From a virus: a stretch of 36,666 nucleotides of DNA. Below, in pieces: positions 10,595 through 21,330 of this stretch. The notes under the pieces are model-generated. The model saw only the letters and a program-made list of their open reading frames with translations. It was not told where the DNA came from and searched no databases. The position numbers and the translations under genes were made by a program. The DNA is taken from IMG/VR virus record IMGVR_UViG_3300042090_000749, positions 1 through 36,666 of that record; one strand, given 5' to 3'. How positions within the stretch are numbered: position 1 is the stretch's first letter; each line of letters starts with the position of its first letter.

Positions 10595-10831
10595 ATGAAC
10601 TTACTGACCATTTCAAGACTAGAAAACTTAAAAAGTGCTATTGAAGATTATCTAAACTACCAATTCATCGGATCGTTTGTTAAAGAAAGCTTGTATGATA
10701 AAATGACACGAACAGGGTTTTCTCTTATGAATGAAAACCAATTCGAGGAAATCCTCGCTATGGTTGAAAACCAAGATTACGAACTAGCTATCTTAACTAT
10801 TGAAAACATCTTAGAAAAGGCGGAAGTATGA
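10595..10831 (+). CDS. Hypothetical helical protein, 78 residues
   Basis: The start is preceded by AAGAGG (7-8 nt spacing). The protein is mostly helical (ISRLENLKSAIEDYLNYQF, NQFEEILAMVENQDYELAIL) and acidic. Its last codons overlap the next start (ATGA), so the two form a small operon transcribed away from the - strand cluster. No family is recognised. Confidence 0.6.
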   Translation: MNLLTISRLENLKSAIEDYLNYQFIGSFVKESLYDKMTRTGFSLMNENQFEEILAMVENQDYELAILTIENILEKAEV

Positions 10832-11082
10832 GACAACGCATAGAAGACTTTGGTAGAATCTACCAAATCGCGCAGGAAGCTAGTAAACACGAGCTATTCG
10901 ATGTTCCTTGGCACAGACCTAAGGATGCACTAGAATACTGCATGGATCAGCCTTTAGAATGGCAAAAAGGCTATATGGAAAGACTGGCCTATAACATTGA
11001 ATCAATGGAAGCGCTAGTTAGCGAGATCAAGGCAATAGCTGCTGGTTTCGATAATCTTAATTCTGCTCACCAAAGAGATTGA
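10828..11082 (+). CDS. Hypothetical protein, 84 residues
   Basis: The gene is translationally coupled to the previous one (4-nt ATGA overlap). It encodes a helical, mildly acidic protein with Trp and Tyr residues (LFDVPWHRPKDALEYCMDQP, LEWQKGYMERLAYNIESM). No family is recognised. It converges with the replication-control genes on the other strand across a 123-bp gap. Confidence 0.6.
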   Translation: MRQRIEDFGRIYQIAQEASKHELFDVPWHRPKDALEYCMDQPLEWQKGYMERLAYNIESMEALVSEIKAIAAGFDNLNSAHQRD

Positions 11083-11205: not shown

Positions 11206-11508
11206 TTATTTTCTATGCATGTTATCTTCTAAAATATAGTACGCATCTCCAAATTCTCCTGAGCTATCGCATTTGATAAGCCCATGGCTTATTAATTTTT
11301 TTAACTCTTTTTGTAGCTTGTTTTTTTGGAATTTAGCATCACAAAGAATCTTTTCTAAATCTTTATACAAAACGCGATTGTTTTCTGATTTATGAGCAAT
11401 CGTAGTAATTTTCATGTAAATTTTTATTTGATTTTCGTTAAGTATTGCTAAGAATTTTTCAAAAAATTCGTTTGGGACACTTACATAAATTGGCACATTT
11501 TTATTCAT
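11206..11508 (-). CDS. Winged-helix-like protein, 100 residues
   Basis: The predicted structure fits a winged-helix DNA-binding domain: a helix (ENQIKIYMKITTIAHKS), a second helix (LYKDLEKILC), a recognition helix (FQKNKLQKELKKLISHGLIK) and a beta wing (CDSSGEFGDAYYIL). The phrase KKLISHGLIK is typical of the end of the recognition helix in HTH_36-like domains. It is the last of four - strand genes that begin with the initiator-like gene. It may control or help replication. No specific family was identified. Confidence 0.5.
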   Translation of the reverse strand: MNKNVPIYVSVPNEFFEKFLAILNENQIKIYMKITTIAHKSENNRVLYKDLEKILCDAKFQKNKLQKELKKLISHGLIKCDSSGEFGDAYYILEDNMHRK

Positions 11509-11745
11509 TTAAGACTCTTCTTGAAAAACTATTTCGCCATCCTTAACAAGTTCGTTAAACAACTGATAAAACTTTTCTTTTTCGATATAAGGAAAATCTA
11601 AATGCAGATCTTCAAATCTTTTTTGCTTAAATTTGTTTACATTGCATGAAATGCAACACTTTTCTAGTCCGATTTTTTTTGCTTCATCTTTATTGATAAT
11701 ATGAAGATTGTACCAATCATCTGTGTGTTTTACATGTATTGTCAT
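11509..11745 (-). CDS. Small protein of the replication operon, unknown
   Basis: The start at 11745 (MTIHVKHTDDW) is preferred over the ATG at 11766 because AAGGGAA precedes it at proper spacing; both overlap the upstream gene. The product has CCISC (a possible metal-binding pair) and a C-terminal helix-turn pattern (IEKEKFYQLFNELVKDGEIV) like the end of a winged-helix domain. It ends one base before the next gene. The function is unknown; gene position suggests a replication or regulatory role. Confidence 0.5.
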   Translation of the reverse strand: MTIHVKHTDDWYNLHIINKDEAKKIGLEKCCISCNVNKFKQKRFEDLHLDFPYIEKEKFYQLFNELVKDGEIVFQEES

Positions 11746-12091
11746 TATGTTCCCTTGCTTGATCATCTAATTCTCTTATCTTTTTTGGCTCACCAAAAAC
11801 AGTATATTCTACGCCAGAAATCCTACCCTTTTCATAAAGAGTAGTTTTTTCGATGTAACCAGCCTCAATTGCTTCTTTAATTAACTTATATAACTTGTCT
11901 CTGCCAATAATTTTTTTAAACTCTAGTTGTAATTCAGCAATCGTCGCTCCTGAAATATAACAACAAAATGAAGTTTGAGATTCTACTTTGGTCATTATGT
12001 AAATAATCAAAAATCTACACTCTAAAGAGACAGAATTATCTTTTATTAATTCAGGGCAAACCCCAACTGTATACATAGGATTGTAGATCAT
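11717..12091 (-). CDS. Winged-helix (HTH_36-like) replication-associated protein
   Basis: This 124-residue protein has the outline of phage helix-turn-helix replication or regulatory domains: an N-terminal segment (MIYNPMYTVGVCPELIKDN), a helix that in relatives senses folding (LECRFLIIYIMTKV), a helix-turn-helix (ATIAELQLEFKKIIGRDKLY followed by KLIKEAIEAGYIEK) and a wing (KGRISGVEYTVF). The wing phrase resembles the HTH_36 pattern in the larger neighbour at 12154-13155, suggesting shared ancestry. It has its own promoter 24-59 nt upstream of its start. Confidence 0.6.
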   Translation of the reverse strand: MIYNPMYTVGVCPELIKDNSVSLECRFLIIYIMTKVESQTSFCCYISGATIAELQLEFKKIIGRDKLYKLIKEAIEAGYIEKTTLYEKGRISGVEYTVFGEPKKIRELDDQAREHNDNTCKTHR

Positions 12092-12121
12092 TTTTTACCT
12101 ATTTACTATTTTATAGAATAA

Positions 12122-12150
12122 AGTATAATAGATTTGAGCTTTTAAGTAAA
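12122..12150 (-). promoter_or_regulatory. Promoter for the 11206-12091 genes
   Basis: On the - strand, TTTACT (12145-12150) and TATACT (12122-12127) are spaced by 17 nt, a good sigma-70-type promoter, about 30 nt before the start at 12091. Its first ten bases, TTTACTTAAA, are identical to those of the promoter at 10486-10514. Confidence 0.6.
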
Positions 12151-12153
12151 CAG

Positions 12154-13155
12154 CTATAAAGTACTATACATTGTTGCCATGTTGTGCATGTTGTAAAGCA
12201 ATTCCATTCTTTGATCTATTTTATGCAAAAACTCATCCTCTCCAAAATCAATTGAATATTTTTGTGATTGATAAACCATAAACAAGAAGTTGTCTTCCAA
12301 GTAAATTTCTAAGCCTGGTATAGCATTTTCGTTGTGTGATTTCAATTGTTCAAAATGTTTTTCAAGAAACTGTTCGTTTTCCTCGAGATTTTTGATTATT
12401 CTTTTTTCATCTTCTAAGCTATTTAAACCATTTAAGTTTTCAAATTTTTTTTTGTCTTTTAGTTCATCTCTTAAATTGTCTCTAATCGTTGTCTTTACAG
12501 CTTTAGGGGAAGAAATAGGTTTATTTCTCAATTTTTCTTTTTCTATAAAAGACATGTATCTTCTCAAGACTTCTTCTTCTTCTTCACTAGAACTATAAAA
12601 ATTTTCTTCTTCTCTTTCCTCTTCATCTTTTTTCCATTTTTTTGAACTTTTATCTTTATAAGGCTGTGGTTTTCTAGGACTAGAGGAGGATGAGTTCTGA
12701 GTAAAATTACATTCTTCATGACAATTAGTACTTGGTAGTTTCCGATTTAGAGGTAGCTCTGTTTGCGCTTGCTCAAAAACGCATTGCGCAAACATTTTTT
12801 TAAATTCATCTTTGTATTTGTCGGCTTCTTCTTTAGAAATTTTTCGATCAAAGATCATGTAATCAACCGATGAAAAAGTAGCTCTTTTTATTCCATTAAC
12901 TTCTCTGACTGTAGTTTTTTGGACTCTAATGCAATAACCTTTATCGATTAGTTCATTAAGACCTTTAAGGACTGAATGCCTAGAATCACCATAAGTTTTC
13001 ATAAGCTCTGTTACATGGAAGTTCCAATCGTCTGGGCGTGATATGCAAGTTAACCACCAACCTAAAGCAGTACGCGATAATGTGGGATCACGAATAACGT
13101 CGTTATTACAAATTGTGAAATTTTCTGTGAGTTTTTTTGTGTGAATGACTGACAT
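12154..13155 (-). CDS. Replication initiator-like protein with N-terminal winged helix
   Basis: This 333-residue protein starts with a winged-helix domain of the type found in phage and plasmid initiators: residues about 20-60 (NDVIRDPTLSRTALGWWLTC, WNFHVTELMKTYGDSRHSVL) and a wing (KATFSSVDYMIFDR region, residues 90-105). A low-complexity linker follows, very rich in Ser, Lys and Glu (SSSSSPRKP; EEEREEENFYSSSEEEEE), then a helical C-terminal part (residues 200-300) that could contact helicase or loader. The ribosome binding site (AGGAG, 9 nt before ATG) lies inside a 12-bp inverted repeat. The initiator role is inferred from domain type and from its place at the head of a winged-helix gene cluster; no helicase or polymerase gene is visible here. 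Confidence 0.6.
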   Translation of the reverse strand: MSVIHTKKLTENFTICNNDVIRDPTLSRTALGWWLTCISRPDDWNFHVTELMKTYGDSRHSVLKGLNELIDKGYCIRVQKTTVREVNGIKRATFSSVDYMIFDRKISKEEADKYKDEFKKMFAQCVFEQAQTELPLNRKLPSTNCHEECNFTQNSSSSSPRKPQPYKDKSSKKWKKDEEEREEENFYSSSEEEEEVLRRYMSFIEKEKLRNKPISSPKAVKTTIRDNLRDELKDKKKFENLNGLNSLEDEKRIIKNLEENEQFLEKHFEQLKSHNENAIPGLEIYLEDNFLFMVYQSQKYSIDFGEDEFLHKIDQRMELLYNMHNMATMYSTL

Positions 13156-13245
13156 TTTTGTAGTCTCCTAAAAGTTGAATGCCTTTAGAGACCTCTGTGA
13201 ACACGATTAGCGTAAAGACTTTCTTTTACGTTAACTTTTAGGAGG
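13156..13245 (-). promoter_or_regulatory. Leader with ribosome-binding-site-sequestering stem
   Basis: In the - strand transcript the initiator gene is preceded by CTCCTAAAAGTT (13233-13244), a 56-nt spacer, then AACTTTTAGGAG (13165-13176), which contains the ribosome binding site. The two are perfectly complementary (12 bp), so the site can be hidden. Between them lies an inner hairpin CGTAAA/TTTACG (13211-13230). The likely -10 (TATATA, 13252-13257 read on the - strand) would start the RNA at about 13245, just before the anti-site strand. Confidence 0.6.
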
Positions 13246-13259
13246 CGATTTTATATACT
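13231..13259 (+). promoter_or_regulatory. Promoter for candidate small RNA
   Basis: TTAACT (13231-13236) and TATACT (13254-13259) are 17 nt apart on the + strand. The -10 shares bases with the TATATA -10 suggested for the divergent initiator transcript, so the two polymerases would compete. The -35 lies inside the inverted repeat. Confidence 0.5.
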
Positions 13260-13265
13260 TTCTGG

Positions 13266-13357
13266 CACATTGTTTGCAGGAAAGTTAATTACTTTCGCCT
13301 CTGGGTTTTCAGAGGTATCTTGTTGAGCCTAACGATTTGCCGTCGTTAGGTTTTTTT
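13266..13357 (+). ncRNA. Candidate small RNA with three hairpins and intrinsic terminator
   Basis: The predicted RNA of about 92 nt has no convincing reading frame. It folds into GAAAGT/ACTTTC (13280-13285 with 13291-13296), CCTCTG/CAGAGG (13298-13303 with 13310-13315) and the terminator CCTAACGA/TCGTTAGG (13328-13335 with 13343-13350), followed by seven Ts. It is made divergently from the initiator gene. Its ACTTTC and CCTCTG segments can pair with GAAAGT and CAGAGG in the initiator leader, so action on that leader is possible but unproven. Confidence 0.5.
13328..13357 (+). terminator. Intrinsic terminator
   Basis: A perfect 8-bp stem (CCTAACGA/TCGTTAGG) with a 7-nt loop is followed by TTTTTTT on the + strand. 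There is no + strand coding gene just upstream, which is why a small RNA is proposed. Confidence 0.75.
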
Positions 13358-13406
13358 ATTTATAGTTGTTTCAATCTACGCATAACTATTTTTTTAGTCT
13401 ACGCAA

Positions 13407-13940
13407 TTAAGCTTCCATCTCCCAAAACGCTGGTGTCTGTTTACTTCCCTCTTTGAACGGGTCTTCATTGGTAAACATGGCTTCTAGGTTAATCGCTCTG
13501 GCATAGAATTCAGTCTTGATTTCTTCGCTTATTGGTTTGTGTGGTAATGGTGTAACATCATACCTGGTATCTTTCTGTTCACCGCTCTTCACAACTTTGA
13601 TATCGTAGTGAAACGGTGCTCCCCAATCAACATCGCGAGAAAGCTTTTCTATGGCCTTTCTAACGCTTGTTTGGGTAATGTGCAGTATCTGCACCTTCTT
13701 AGCTCCGACGTTCCACACAATGAGGCTCCAAAAGTGTTTTGGAGGGTTTGCAGGATCTAAGGGCACAGGCACTTCACCAGACACATAAACATGGCGCTTG
13801 GGTTTTCTTTCAGGAGTCCACTCTTCCCAACCCACAATGGGTGAGCTAAGGATTCTAAAGCGGTTTTCTCCACTTTGTAACTTCATAAAGCCGTCGTTAC
13901 TTTCTTTCGGGGATTCGTAGTTTTTATCTAAAAATGACAT
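13407..13940 (-). CDS. Single-stranded-DNA-binding protein (gp32-like), probable
   Basis: This 177-residue protein begins with the pattern seen in T4 gp32-like phage ssDNA-binding proteins: a short basic/acidic lead (FLDKNYESPKESNDGFMKL), then SGENRFRILSSPIVGWEEW (residues about 23-41), HFWSLIVWNVGAKKVQILHI (residues about 69-88) and WGAPFHYDIKVVKSGEQ. The KLQ-x-GENRFR-x-L phrase and the later V-W-N strands fit an OB-fold. The C-terminus is mixed charge and aromatic rather than purely acidic. It lies close to the ERF annealing gene and the initiator gene, fitting a DNA replication or recombination role. The family call is from pattern memory only. Confidence 0.6.
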   Translation of the reverse strand: MSFLDKNYESPKESNDGFMKLQSGENRFRILSSPIVGWEEWTPERKPKRHVYVSGEVPVPLDPANPPKHFWSLIVWNVGAKKVQILHITQTSVRKAIEKLSRDVDWGAPFHYDIKVVKSGEQKDTRYDVTPLPHKPISEEIKTEFYARAINLEAMFTNEDPFKEGSKQTPAFWEMEA

Positions 13941-13960
13941 AAATTTCCTAGTTATTTTGT

Positions 13961-13989
13961 TTGTGTGTATATAGTTAAAATGCTACTAT
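13961..13989 (+). promoter_or_regulatory. Extended -10 promoter, ATGCTACTAT motif
   Basis: TTGTGT (13961-13966), 17 nt, then TGC-TACTAT (13981-13989) reads as an extended -10 promoter on the + strand. The same ATGCTAC string is found at 7922 and 16009. It also sits about 40 nt upstream of the - strand ssDNA-binding-protein gene, so it could alternatively be an operator for that gene. Confidence 0.4.
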
Positions 13990-13995
13990 TGTATT

Positions 13996-14117
13996 GCCTC
14001 TAATGGTTTGAGTTTTCGTTCATGTTAGCTCAGATTTATGGTATTGATATGTAGTCAGGGTTCTTAACCTTCTCTGGCGGGATAGCTCTAAGGGTAAAAT
14101 CTTAGGGCTATTTTTTT
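13996..14117 (+). ncRNA. Second candidate small RNA ending in an intrinsic terminator
   Basis: From the promoter-like element at 13961-13989 a transcript of about 120 nt would end at the strong terminator at 14083-14117. The region has no reading frame longer than about ten codons with a ribosome binding site. It has a small hairpin GGTT/AACC and lies divergently upstream of the ssDNA-binding-protein gene, the same arrangement as the candidate RNA at 13266-13357. It could alternatively be an untranslated leader with terminator for the genes from 14180. Confidence 0.35.
14083..14117 (+). terminator. Intrinsic terminator or attenuator upstream of the 14180 gene
   Basis: TAGCTCTAAG (14083-14092) and CTTAGGGCTA (14101-14110) form a 10-bp stem with one G-U pair and an 8-nt loop, followed by seven Ts. 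It lies 63 nt before the next + strand gene, so it could end a small RNA or attenuate that operon. Confidence 0.7.
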
Positions 14118-14126
14118 AGCCGTCAA

Positions 14127-14160
14127 CTACCAATTTACTACCAAAACCTACCAATTTGGT
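14127..14160. repeat. Three CTACCAA direct repeats (iteron- or operator-like)
   Basis: CTACCAA starts at 14127, 14138 and 14148, spaced 11 and 10 bp, about one helical turn, and the last copy runs into the inverted sequence CCAATTTGG. Evenly phased direct repeats of this kind bind replication initiators or regulators. They sit between a terminator and the gene at 14180, on AT-rich DNA. Confidence 0.45.
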
Positions 14161-14179
14161 AATTGAGTAAAAGGAAATT

Positions 14180-14494
14180 ATGGAAATCACAAAAACTGAC
14201 CCTACAGAAGAAAAGATTATTGATGGGTATGACAATGTGTGTTGTTCTCCCATTATCATCTCTTTATCCCAATTCCTAACCCTGTCAAAAATGTTAGGCT
14301 TTTTGGAAGGCTCTATTACTAATTTAGAAGTCATTGATCGGTGGGCAGATTTAGTAGAACCCAGTGAGCTATATGATTTCCTGGTTAAACATAGAGATGC
14401 GCTAAAACACATGTTAAAAGACGAATTAGAGCCAATTGTAATGGCGCTTAGAGATCAACTAGAACTAGAAGGGAAGAAATTAGAGATAATATAA
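14180..14494 (+). CDS. Hypothetical protein, 104 residues
   Basis: The start is preceded by AAGGAAATT, a good ribosome binding site. The protein is acidic at both ends, with a helical middle (IIISLSQFLTLSKMLGFLEG) and a long C-terminal helix (DALKHMLKDELEPIVMALRD). No family is recognised. It follows the repeat and terminator cluster at 14083-14160, so its transcription may be regulated there. Confidence 0.6.
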   Translation: MEITKTDPTEEKIIDGYDNVCCSPIIISLSQFLTLSKMLGFLEGSITNLEVIDRWADLVEPSELYDFLVKHRDALKHMLKDELEPIVMALRDQLELEGKKLEII

Positions 14495-16922: not shown

Positions 16923-18227
16923 ATGACTATAGATAGTAATGACCTATTGGCACCAAAACAACTAGAATTTATTTACAAATCAACGAAGCAATGGAATCTA
17001 GCTCATGGCAGCGTTCGATCTGGTAAAACAATCTGTACACTATGGCGATTTATGCAGGCTTGTTTTGCCTGTCCAGACTCTCAAATATTTATGGTTGGTC
17101 ACTCAAGCGATACTATTTACCAAAACGTTATTAGACTCATTCTTGAATCACCACAGCTAGCCGTTTATAGGCCATTTTGTACCTGGGAAGCGGGAAAGAG
17201 ACGGCTTAAATTTATGGATAAGGTTATAAGCACACTCGGTGCCAAAGACGAAGGAGCTATTGGTCAGTTTCAGGGTAAGTCTATGTCTCTAGTTTACTGT
17301 GATGAAATTACTCTATATCCAGAAGCTATTATCGACATGATCGATACACGGCTATCGTTCAAACATTCCATGGGATTCGCTTCCATGAATCCATCCTATC
17401 CTACGCACAAGGTCAAGCAATGGATAGATAAGGCTGAGGCGGGAGACCCTAATTACTACGCTCTACATTTTAACTTGGATGATAATCCTTATGTCGACGA
17501 ATCTTACAAACAACGAATCCGCGATAGTCTTTCTGGTTTGTTTTATAAGCGTAATTATCTGGGGTTGTGGTGTCTTGCAGAGGGTGCAATCTTCGACTTC
17601 TTTGACCGTAAAATCTATGTTCTTCGTCGCCCTCCCACTGCTGCTGAGTATTGGATCGCTGGTATTGATTATGGCACTGTTAATGCGTTTGCTTGCGTTT
17701 TGATAGGAGTTTCAACTGGAAAATACACACAGACTGGTAAACGTTTGTGGGCTGAGAAAGAATACTTCTGGGATTCAAAGAAGAAAGGGAGACAGAAGAC
17801 TAACTCTGAGTATGCGGATGATGTTGCAGCTTTCCTCGAACCATATGCAGTTAAAAACGTTTATGTTGACCCTAGTGCCGCTGCCTTTAAGCTAGAGCTA
17901 AGACGACGTGGTATCCACTGCGTGGATGCTTATAATGAGGTAGAGGATGGTATTCAAATCATGACATCCGAAATGAAAAAGGGTAACTTCTTTATTTGCG
18001 AGGATTGCCCTAATCTGATTAGAGAAATTGAAAGCTATGTATGGGATTCTAAACAAGCAGAGCGTGGTATTGATGCTCCCCTTAAAAAAGATGATCATAT
18101 CCTCGATGCGACACGTTATTGCCTAGCCACTCACAAGGTGGCTTCGTTTGATTTGGATGAATATCACAGGAAACAAGAGATGCAAATGAGACAGAAATAT
18201 CATCCCCAAGGTTATGGGTTTAAATAG
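16923..18227 (+). CDS. Terminase large subunit (packaging ATPase/nuclease)
   Basis: This 434-residue protein has the full motor-nuclease layout. ATPase: Walker A GSVRSGKT (residues 29-36), a Q-motif-like start, Walker B LVYCDE (123-128, Glu128 catalytic) and the coupling segment FASMNPSYPTHK (about 151-162). Nuclease: IAGIDYG (Asp249), VYVDPSAAAF (Asp316) and HILDATRY (Asp395), the three acidic residues expected for the RNase H-like domain. The length and order fit PBSX/terminase-6-type proteins. It cuts concatemeric DNA and pumps it into the prohead through the portal encoded just downstream. It starts at an ATG with a weak site in the short divergent gap. Confidence 0.9.
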   Translation: MTIDSNDLLAPKQLEFIYKSTKQWNLAHGSVRSGKTICTLWRFMQACFACPDSQIFMVGHSSDTIYQNVIRLILESPQLAVYRPFCTWEAGKRRLKFMDKVISTLGAKDEGAIGQFQGKSMSLVYCDEITLYPEAIIDMIDTRLSFKHSMGFASMNPSYPTHKVKQWIDKAEAGDPNYYALHFNLDDNPYVDESYKQRIRDSLSGLFYKRNYLGLWCLAEGAIFDFFDRKIYVLRRPPTAAEYWIAGIDYGTVNAFACVLIGVSTGKYTQTGKRLWAEKEYFWDSKKKGRQKTNSEYADDVAAFLEPYAVKNVYVDPSAAAFKLELRRRGIHCVDAYNEVEDGIQIMTSEMKKGNFFICEDCPNLIREIESYVWDSKQAERGIDAPLKKDDHILDATRYCLATHKVASFDLDEYHRKQEMQMRQKYHPQGYGFK

Positions 18228-18973: not shown

Positions 18974-21330
18974 TTGGCTTTTTATATGCCGCCTTGGAAC
19001 AACGCGTTGGAGCCGAATCAAGGTAACGTCAGACAGTGGTTAGACAACCTGTATTCGAAATTCCAACCAATTGAACAGGCTTAAAGCGGGTCTGTTAATA
19101 AAAGAGAAAGGCGTTGGAATCAATCGAACATTGATACCCTCTTTTATGCTGGCTTGAGTTTAGGGTCAGTTTAAACCGTTCCTGATTGACTTGGAAGGCT
19201 AAACCGAAAGGCATGCCGACAAGGCGGAACTCGCAAGAGACCGTGAGAGACTGAGTGGAATGGGCTAGAAATAGCAAGCGACAGTCCGACCCGAACAACG
19301 AAAGGTTCGGAGGCTAGCAGAAATGACTAGCCCGCTCGTAAGAGAGGTAACAGATTGCTCAAACTTTCATAAATAGATATTTTAATTTTACGCCAGCAGC
19401 GTCATATCAAAATTTCTACTTCAACCTGCTTCAACAGCCAGTCAACATGGTGACGGGATACCAACGTCAACATCGAAAATCTATTAACTATCTACCCTCT
19501 GAAGGGGCTGATCCTAATACGACCGATCAATACACACGGTTAATCACTCATGTTTGTAATACTAACGGAATTCACGAGCAGTTTTCTAGAGCTTGTGAAC
19601 AAGCAGCCATCACTGGAATGGTTTTACTCCAACCTTATCTTGATTATAATGGCGATGATCATGCTCAAGGACAACTTAAAGTAAAACTTTGGGAATATAA
19701 CTCATTCCTGATTGATCCCTATATGAGAGAACTTGATGGTTCCGATTGTCAATTTGTGTGGTGTCAAGAGTATATATCCAAGAAAGAGGCTGAATTCCGC
19801 TTCCCTGATATGAAAGCCAATATTGCTCCTATGTCGGGAACGCCTCAACGCTATGGATCATTCTATTTTCTTCCTGAAAACTACAACATGGCTCGTAATG
19901 ATCTAATGGTTTTGAGTTATGTTTGGTATAAATGGAAACGTAAGAAGAAACGTCTTTATTCCCGATCTAGAAATCAATTCTTTGATTACGCTGGGGATGA
20001 TGGTCATCTTGAACTCATCCTATATTCAATCCCTGACCTAGAAGAAGTCACAGTCGAAGTGCCATGTTGGAAGCTTGCAGTCGTGCTTAACGATCAGTTG
20101 ATGTTCCAAGGGGACAATCCACTGGGTTTTGACGACTGCCCCTTTATACCCGTTGTGTGGAATTATGAACCTCATATCAATTATTACGATTTAAGGGCAC
20201 GCGGATTAGTTAGAACTATGAGAGATTCTAACTATCTGCTTAATCGAAGAATCATTATCAATCATGATATATCAGAAGCTACTATTAACGCAGGTTGGAT
20301 GCGCAAAGTTGGTGCTGTAGCTAACGAAGATAACCTCAAAAAATCTGGTCAAGGCTGGGACGTTATCATCAATGAAGGATATGAGATGAGTGATGTTCAA
20401 AAGATCATTCCTTCATCTGTTCCTGAATCTGATATGGCCTTAGCAGATCAATTAAGGTCGCTTATCTTTGGAACTTCGGGTATCGATTTAGAGAATTGGA
20501 GCGCACAAAACGATAAACAAGCCTCTTCGCTTACAACTATCCTTAAGCAAGCTGCCAATCTGACTGTTCTTCAAAAATATTTCGATCAATGGGATTTAGC
20601 TCTTAAATATCTAGGAGATAGAATGCTTCAAATTGCTCAAAACAATTGGAATGCTGCCAAAGTAGGATTGATCATCGGAGAAGATCCATCACCGCACTTC
20701 TATTCGAAGATCTTTGCTAAATATCAAACAATTGTAGAAGAAGGCCTCTTAACGCCAACTCAGAAAGCGTATCAAGCTCAACAAATGCTCGATATAAATG
20801 CCCAGTTTGGAAGAGAGGTGTTCCCTGCTTCTATGATTATTAAAGATATGGCAATCCAAGGTAAAGCAGAGATTATGGAGTTCTTACAACAGCAAGAACA
20901 ACAAGCAGCAGCTGTTCAAAATGAAGCCACAAACATTCAACATGCATTTGAAGAAGCAAAACTCAAAGAACTCATGTCTAAAGCTGCTTCTAATCTGGCT
21001 ACTGCTAGAGAGCGTCACGGTAGGTCTCAAGCTGATATCGGCCTCTATGAAGAGAGATTAAGCGAGATCACACGCAATAGAGCATTAGCGACAAAAGATA
21101 AGATGGAAGCTCTTGAGAAGATGGTTGATGTCACTGCTAAACTTGGTGCTATTGAAACCATGATGAAGATGGGTCAGATTGAAGACTTCAACAACTCTCA
21201 ATCGATTGGCGAAGATATTGAAAAAAGAGACGCTCAGAAAACAAGCGATTCTAATGCATTTATGATGGAAATATTGAAAGGGATGCCTGGTTTGCAACAA
21301 CCTGCTCCACAACAAGAAGTTGGTGTGTAA
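18974..21330 (+). CDS. Portal protein, split by a group I intron: join(18974..19081,19354..21330)
   Basis: Exon 1 (36 codons) starts at TTG 18974, placed 6 nt after a strong GGAGG, and reads LAFYMPPWNNALEPNQGNVR to EQA. Exon 2 starts at 19354 and reads IAQTFINRYFNFTPAASYQN onward. Splicing joins them in frame into a 694-residue protein. Without splicing, exon 1 stops at once (TAA). The ATG at 19447 has no ribosome binding site, so it is not a separate start. Features include NLLQQPVNMVTGYQRQHRKS, typical of one group of large phage portals, a long core, and a C-terminal helical coiled-coil barrel region (EQQAAAVQNEATNIQHAFEE). Portals form a dodecameric ring at one capsid vertex through which the terminase pumps DNA. 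It lies between terminase and scaffold/capsid genes, as expected. Confidence 0.85.
19082..19353 (+). ncRNA. Group I self-splicing intron in the portal gene (272 nt, no internal ORF)
   Basis: P1: exon ACAGGCT (19075-19081) pairs with internal guide GGTCTGT (19089-19095), with the required U-G pair at the 5' splice site. P2: ATAAAAGAG/CTCTTTTAT (19098-19106 with 19139-19147). P3: CCGTTCC/GGAATGG (19176-19182 with 19257-19263). P7: GACTG/CAGTC (19249-19253 with 19282-19286). P8: GCTA-GAAA-TAGC (19264-19275). P9: CCGAAC/GTTCGG (19291-19310). P9.1: GGCTAG/CTAGCC (19312-19332). The last intron base is G19353. P10 can form between exon 2 bases 19356-19359 and intron 19085-19088. The joined exons stay in frame. 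P4-P6 lie in 19183-19248 but were not fully drawn. Confidence 0.88.

Follow-up and report, generated by a model that had tools for sequence, protein, structure and literature searches.

A candidate divergent OOP-like short-RNA unit and a leader predicted to hide the ribosome binding site at a phage replication initiator gene

The stretch of DNA analysed here (the window) comprises the 36,666 bases of a virus record, and in it profile matches identified a large terminase (16923-18227, + strand), a portal protein (19447-21330, + strand) and a major head protein. The gene of interest encodes a winged-helix protein, the N terminus of which is the region matching PHROG DNA-binding and replication-initiation families (phrog_270 at this locus, E = 1.7e-6); an HTH_36 match was sub-threshold. 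The preliminary description of this DNA had named it an initiator gene. The name is backed by both kinds of profile and, because of the PHROG matches, is a fair one. Two more small winged-helix genes lie downstream (11206-11508 and 11717-12091), and the segment 11206-13155 thereby holds three tandem winged-helix replication-type genes of 100, 124 and 333 aa. Coordinates of the features discussed below are given in Table 1.

Table 1. Features at the initiator locus of the window.
Feature	Position	Strand	Remarks
Replication-initiator-type winged-helix protein, 333 aa	12154..13155	-	PHROG DNA-binding/replication-initiation families
gp32/SSB-like gene	13407..13940	-	Upstream of initiator, co-directional; possible read-through source
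Candidate divergent short RNA, OOP-like, 92 nt	about 13266..13357	+	Hairpins 13280-13296 and 13297-13316, then terminator
Strong intrinsic terminator	13325..13355	+	U-run on + side only
Small RNA promoter candidate, TTAACT-17-TATACT	13231..13259	+	Overlaps initiator -10
Predicted 5' leader of initiator mRNA, ~92 nt	13156..13247	-	Fold z about -3; blastn homology to L002
SD-containing arm of long-range stem, AACUUUUAGGAG	13165..13176	-	
5'-end anti-SD arm, CUCCUAAAAGUU	13233..13244	-	GCYUCCUA 7/8 identical in L002
Inner hairpin, UUAACGUAAA...UUUACGCUAA	13207..13234	-	2/7 pairs changed on both sides in L002
Middle anti-SD arm of local SD-hiding hairpin, GUCUCUAAAG	13183..13192	-	Constrained folds; competes with long-range stem
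SD arm of local hairpin, CUUUUAGGAGAC	13163..13174	-	
AT-rich -10 candidate of initiator promoter (TATATA/TATAAA)	13250..13258	-	Read from sequence

No - strand terminator was found between the SSB-like gene and the initiator in a scan of 12500-14000. A search of 11700-14200 revealed no iteron array, only two-copy repeats, and for this reason no origin was located. A second strong divergent terminator occurs at 14087-14112 (+ strand), 170 nt upstream of the SSB-like gene (window 13941-14112); since + strand ORFs follow it, its role may be attenuation and not the ending of a small RNA.

On the + strand, folding reproduced the candidate 92-nt RNA of the preliminary description, with two hairpins and a strong terminator (z = -4.4, 0/200 shuffles as stable). 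The predicted RNA starts about 110 nt from the initiator and ends 49 nt before the SSB-like gene, and no antisense overlap with the upstream coding sequence was found (RNA end ~13357, gene end 13407). The promoter previously assigned to it is present as described, but its 9/12 agreement with the consensus is at chance level (3 sites versus 3.9 expected in the region); in a PWM scan it scored z = 1.4, with 3/40 shuffles equally good. A bidirectional terminator of the upstream gene was rejected in the window, as the - strand has no U-run.

The perfect 12-bp repeat reported earlier, which pairs the SD with the likely 5' end of the initiator transcript, is present, and no other inverted repeat in the window reaches 12 bp with a spacer of up to 100 nt (0.23 expected under a first-order Markov null). 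The earlier claim of a hidden ribosome binding site held in predicted folds: for transcripts starting 90-120 nt upstream, the SD pairing probability was about 1.0, and hiding is kept in the nearest relative, L002. Two other SDs in the window, with shorter motifs, were equally paired. The candidate initiator promoter is without a good -35, and Rfam yielded no family match at the gathering threshold.

The long-range stem between the 5' end and the SD is favoured in the window at about -23 kcal/mol, and a local alternative, GUCUCU-AAAG / CUUU-UA-GGAGAC, reached about -16 in constrained folds. This local SD-hiding hairpin is common to the window and L002 and was absent from the preliminary description. 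According to prefix folds of the window leader, its 5' GCCUC pairs with the middle GAGGU before the SD is synthesized; by analogy with phage MS2, this intermediate could provide a brief opening for ribosomes. A candidate anti-anti-SD contributed by read-through sequence (TTAACTTT with AAAGTTAA) may lower SD pairing in modelled window transcripts starting at least 180 nt upstream; it was set aside because L002 is without it.

L002 was found by a terminase scan, its terminase being 88% identical to that of the window. Positions 2799-2913 of L002 match window 13151-13262 at 67% (blastn, E 6.5e-8 against 2.36 Mb of related loci); the match spans the promoter region, the leader and the start codon and ends at the gene. 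BLASTP detected no similarity between the two initiators. Because the leader matches while the initiators are unrelated, the leader and divergent unit appear, as judged from these alignments, to outlast the coding sequence under their control. The predicted divergent RNA of L002 has the same layout of two hairpins and a strong terminator (fold z -6.4). At the position of the window's TTAACT-17-TATACT the alignment reads TTACTT-17-TATACT, and AGTATA(TA)AAA at the -10 region is common to both.

In L002, as in the window, a long-range and a local stem compete to hide the SD. The local hairpin GGGUCUCU / GGAGGCCC is favoured there (-23.4). When folding is limited to the first 90 nt, the most stable structure is a 9-bp long-range stem, GCUUCCUAG / UUUAGGAGGC, with the inner and middle hairpins inside it (-22.2, equilibrium prefix folds). 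Over the two helices counted, 93% of pair cells are retained between window and L002. A covariation check restricted to these two sequences found two double-sided changes in the inner hairpin, but the result was insignificant (120/500 shuffles).

The leader sequence is shared with this one relative only. Single-sequence scans of IMG/VR with the initiator and SSB returned no relatives, whereas terminase and portal scans found some. A conserved leader-core DNA pattern matched 25 stretches, with a true leader only in the L002 contig, and a scan with the L002 initiator and PD-(D/E)XK nuclease pair recovered L002's own contig only. Contig L038, suggested by blastn to be leader-like, turned out not to carry a leader. 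Separately, an insertion in the large terminase ORF of L002 (9989-11725, 578 aa) has ends that look intein-like (CVTGDTLVATNTG...IIVKNC), and the window terminase lacks this insertion.

Related loci gathered by terminase and portal alignments formed about 125 distinct contig groups. Winged-helix initiators came up repeatedly in a scan for terminators that read away from gene starts. A first enrichment count (24/32) suffered from biased seed choice and was replaced by initiators selected blindly by the phrog_270 profile alone, which removes selection bias; among 49 records, 37 had a hit and their upstream DNA was inspected. A strong terminator reading away within 300 nt of the initiator was found in 24/37 records versus 18/189 other early operon heads (p = 2.7e-12). 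The remaining 13/37 records had no divergent terminator detected within 300 nt, and only 6/37 had a terminator pointing toward the initiator.

Past the divergent terminator, the longest open frame usually runs in the same direction as the initiator. The terminator thus ends a short unit that stands by itself, and an attenuator of a leftward operon is disfavoured. Given this orientation, the short RNA would be antisense to a read-through message entering the initiator. Because the short-RNA layout recurs at the initiator gene in most relatives, inheritance as a control point seems a better account of it than chance. Across the family, promoter signal on the small RNA strand exceeded that of shuffles only modestly (mean z 0.59 over 27). 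The median SD pairing of initiators was 0.80 versus 0.58 for other genes (p = 8e-5), with SD length uncontrolled. In five named phages with related initiators, the initiator sits close behind other genes.

Three further observations were made among the related loci. Contigs L021 and L022 share long identical stretches, and their initiator ORFs have the same end and different upstream divergent terminators, hinting that the region upstream of the initiator was exchanged. About 100 nt upstream of the initiator in L062 (L255 query 52-155) are 76-82% identical to distant DNA in L047, L103, L120 and L141, a possible mobile or repeated element. The terminase family also occurs, as the sole yield of a genome scan, in three MAG contigs of different phyla, L192, L193 and L194 (labelled Nitrospiraceae, Alphaproteobacteria and Simkania), where binning errors are possible.

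Phage lambda served as a positive control: the same test detected a divergent terminator 80 nt from the O start and none co-directional. In lambda, a pO promoter, a short oop RNA and a tO terminator have been described; transcription from pR falls when pO is active and replication suffers when pO is lost, whereas supplying more oop RNA in trans hardly changes plasmid copy number (PMC3985674). In a review, OOP is counted as one of the regulators of lambdoid development (PMC12197685). A search of the literature collection used here for oop-like elements in phages found nothing. In layout and fold the window resembles lambda: a short candidate RNA ending in a terminator points away from the initiator within the gap that precedes it, and the gene past the terminator runs in the initiator's direction. 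Lambda OOP, however, overlaps cII and is antisense to it, and about 2 bp separate the pO -10 from the first O codon (PMC3985674), whereas the window RNA stops short of the SSB-like gene and its promoter overlaps the candidate initiator promoter. Window 13100-13400 had no match among 50,697 phage records including lambda (blastn, 11-base words); the module appears to work like lambda oop, probably without homology to it. This resemblance, absent from the preliminary description, suggests cis action on transcription and on read-through.

For the leader, the closest parallels are other mRNAs in which the SD is hidden. The MS2 maturation-protein leader hides its SD kinetically by a 5' complement, and the type I toxin mRNAs aapA3 and hok use metastable anti-SD hairpins (PMC6733600). 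As in MS2, the predicted folds of the window place inner hairpins between the SD and the 5' end of the leader to which it pairs, and equilibrium prefix folds give earlier folding intermediates. The comparison with MS2, an RNA phage, implies no homology; unlike the MS2 leader, the window leader has a second, local anti-SD. The window is like aapA3 and hok in that anti-SD elements compete one after another and a candidate small RNA lies alongside. Those mRNAs encode a toxin rather than an initiator, and in the window the mRNA that would start at the initiator's own promoter has no overlap with the small RNA.

With moderate confidence, we read the locus as an OOP/pO-type cis module, acting through promoter interference and read-through antisense, joined to an SD-hiding leader, the two controlling initiator supply. 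From the computed anatomy, the folding, the retention in L002 and the family-wide enrichment of divergent terminators, we infer the following course of events. Two promoters with overlapping -10 regions would compete, one leading to the initiator and the other to a non-coding RNA of ~92 nt, which would halt at its own terminator ahead of the co-directional upstream gene. The short RNA would act mainly in cis, polymerase firing away from the initiator interfering with transcription into it. The same RNA would be a perfect antisense to any read-through message from the SSB-like gene. Initiator mRNA made from its own promoter would hide the SD via either the 5'-end or the middle anti-SD, so ribosome loading would probably be limited to nascent RNA or to the period after some trigger.

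The preliminary description had instead suggested a replication control circuit in which RNA structure, and perhaps the small RNA, sets initiator translation; on this model the small RNA would base-pair in trans with the leader through its ACTTTC and CCTCTG segments, opening or closing the SD. The hidden ribosome binding site and the divergent terminator-ended RNA of that circuit are supported; the action in trans is not. Both segments, and GAAAGT in the leader, are located where they had been placed, the small RNA and leader share CGCCUC and CAGAGGU-UCU (inverted repeat I1, 13/16), and GGUCUC is common to the small RNA and leader of L002. However, pairing is not above chance in the window, where 16/100 cofold and 24/200 duplex shuffles were as good, and is inconsistent in L002 (56/100 and 5/200). 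Moreover, the matching bases are buried in stable hairpin stems of the small RNA, and the paired segments are unlike between window and L002. The trans model is therefore unsupported, and we regard it as unlikely. Control by the leader by itself, with the terminator just blocking antisense transcription and no regulatory RNA involved, has a little more to recommend it and is still improbable to us. Leader conservation in L002 is the strongest sequence evidence at the locus, and the evidence for the small RNA promoter is weak; yet the divergent terminator recurs at initiators of the family regardless of the leader, L002 retains the small RNA hairpins ahead of it, and a terminator needs transcription to stop, when the nearest + strand genes reading toward this one are 2.3 kb off (10595-11082).

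We give little credence to a direct role of the divergent RNA or its promoter at the origin, through priming or transcriptional activation, in place of a role in initiator expression. Such a role accords with the position beside the initiator, with early proposals for lambda oop and with the influence of lambda pO on origin function (PMC3985674), but the search described above found no iterons, and a primer role for lambda oop is considered unlikely (PMC3985674). Fortuitous hairpins in AT-rich intergenic DNA would explain why promoter-like sites are as numerous as in shuffles; this is the least credible account and is disfavoured by the unique inverted repeat, the significance of the leader match to L002, the fold z-scores of the two small RNAs and the terminator enrichment across the family. 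The cis module joined to an SD-hiding leader thus remains our preferred reading.

More tentatively, a large clade of uncultivated ~40-kb phages may keep an OOP-type RNA and promoter at the head of the replication operon while swapping unrelated initiators and RNA sequences, the unit being selected for position and transcription, as a cis timer of initiator supply, and not for the sequence of its RNA. One sublineage may have added a leader with two anti-SDs that would allow translation only on new messages. The lambda pO/oop unit has been disputed since it was proposed as a primer, and its role in replication is tangled with antisense action on cII. Where a pO/oop-type layout recurs across a clade although the initiators are unrelated, and the RNA stops clear of the upstream gene, the replication role would become testable on its own. 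The leader would show in compact form how two anti-SD elements can compete within a replication gene of a DNA phage, and OOP-like units may be a general solution for limiting initiator supply.
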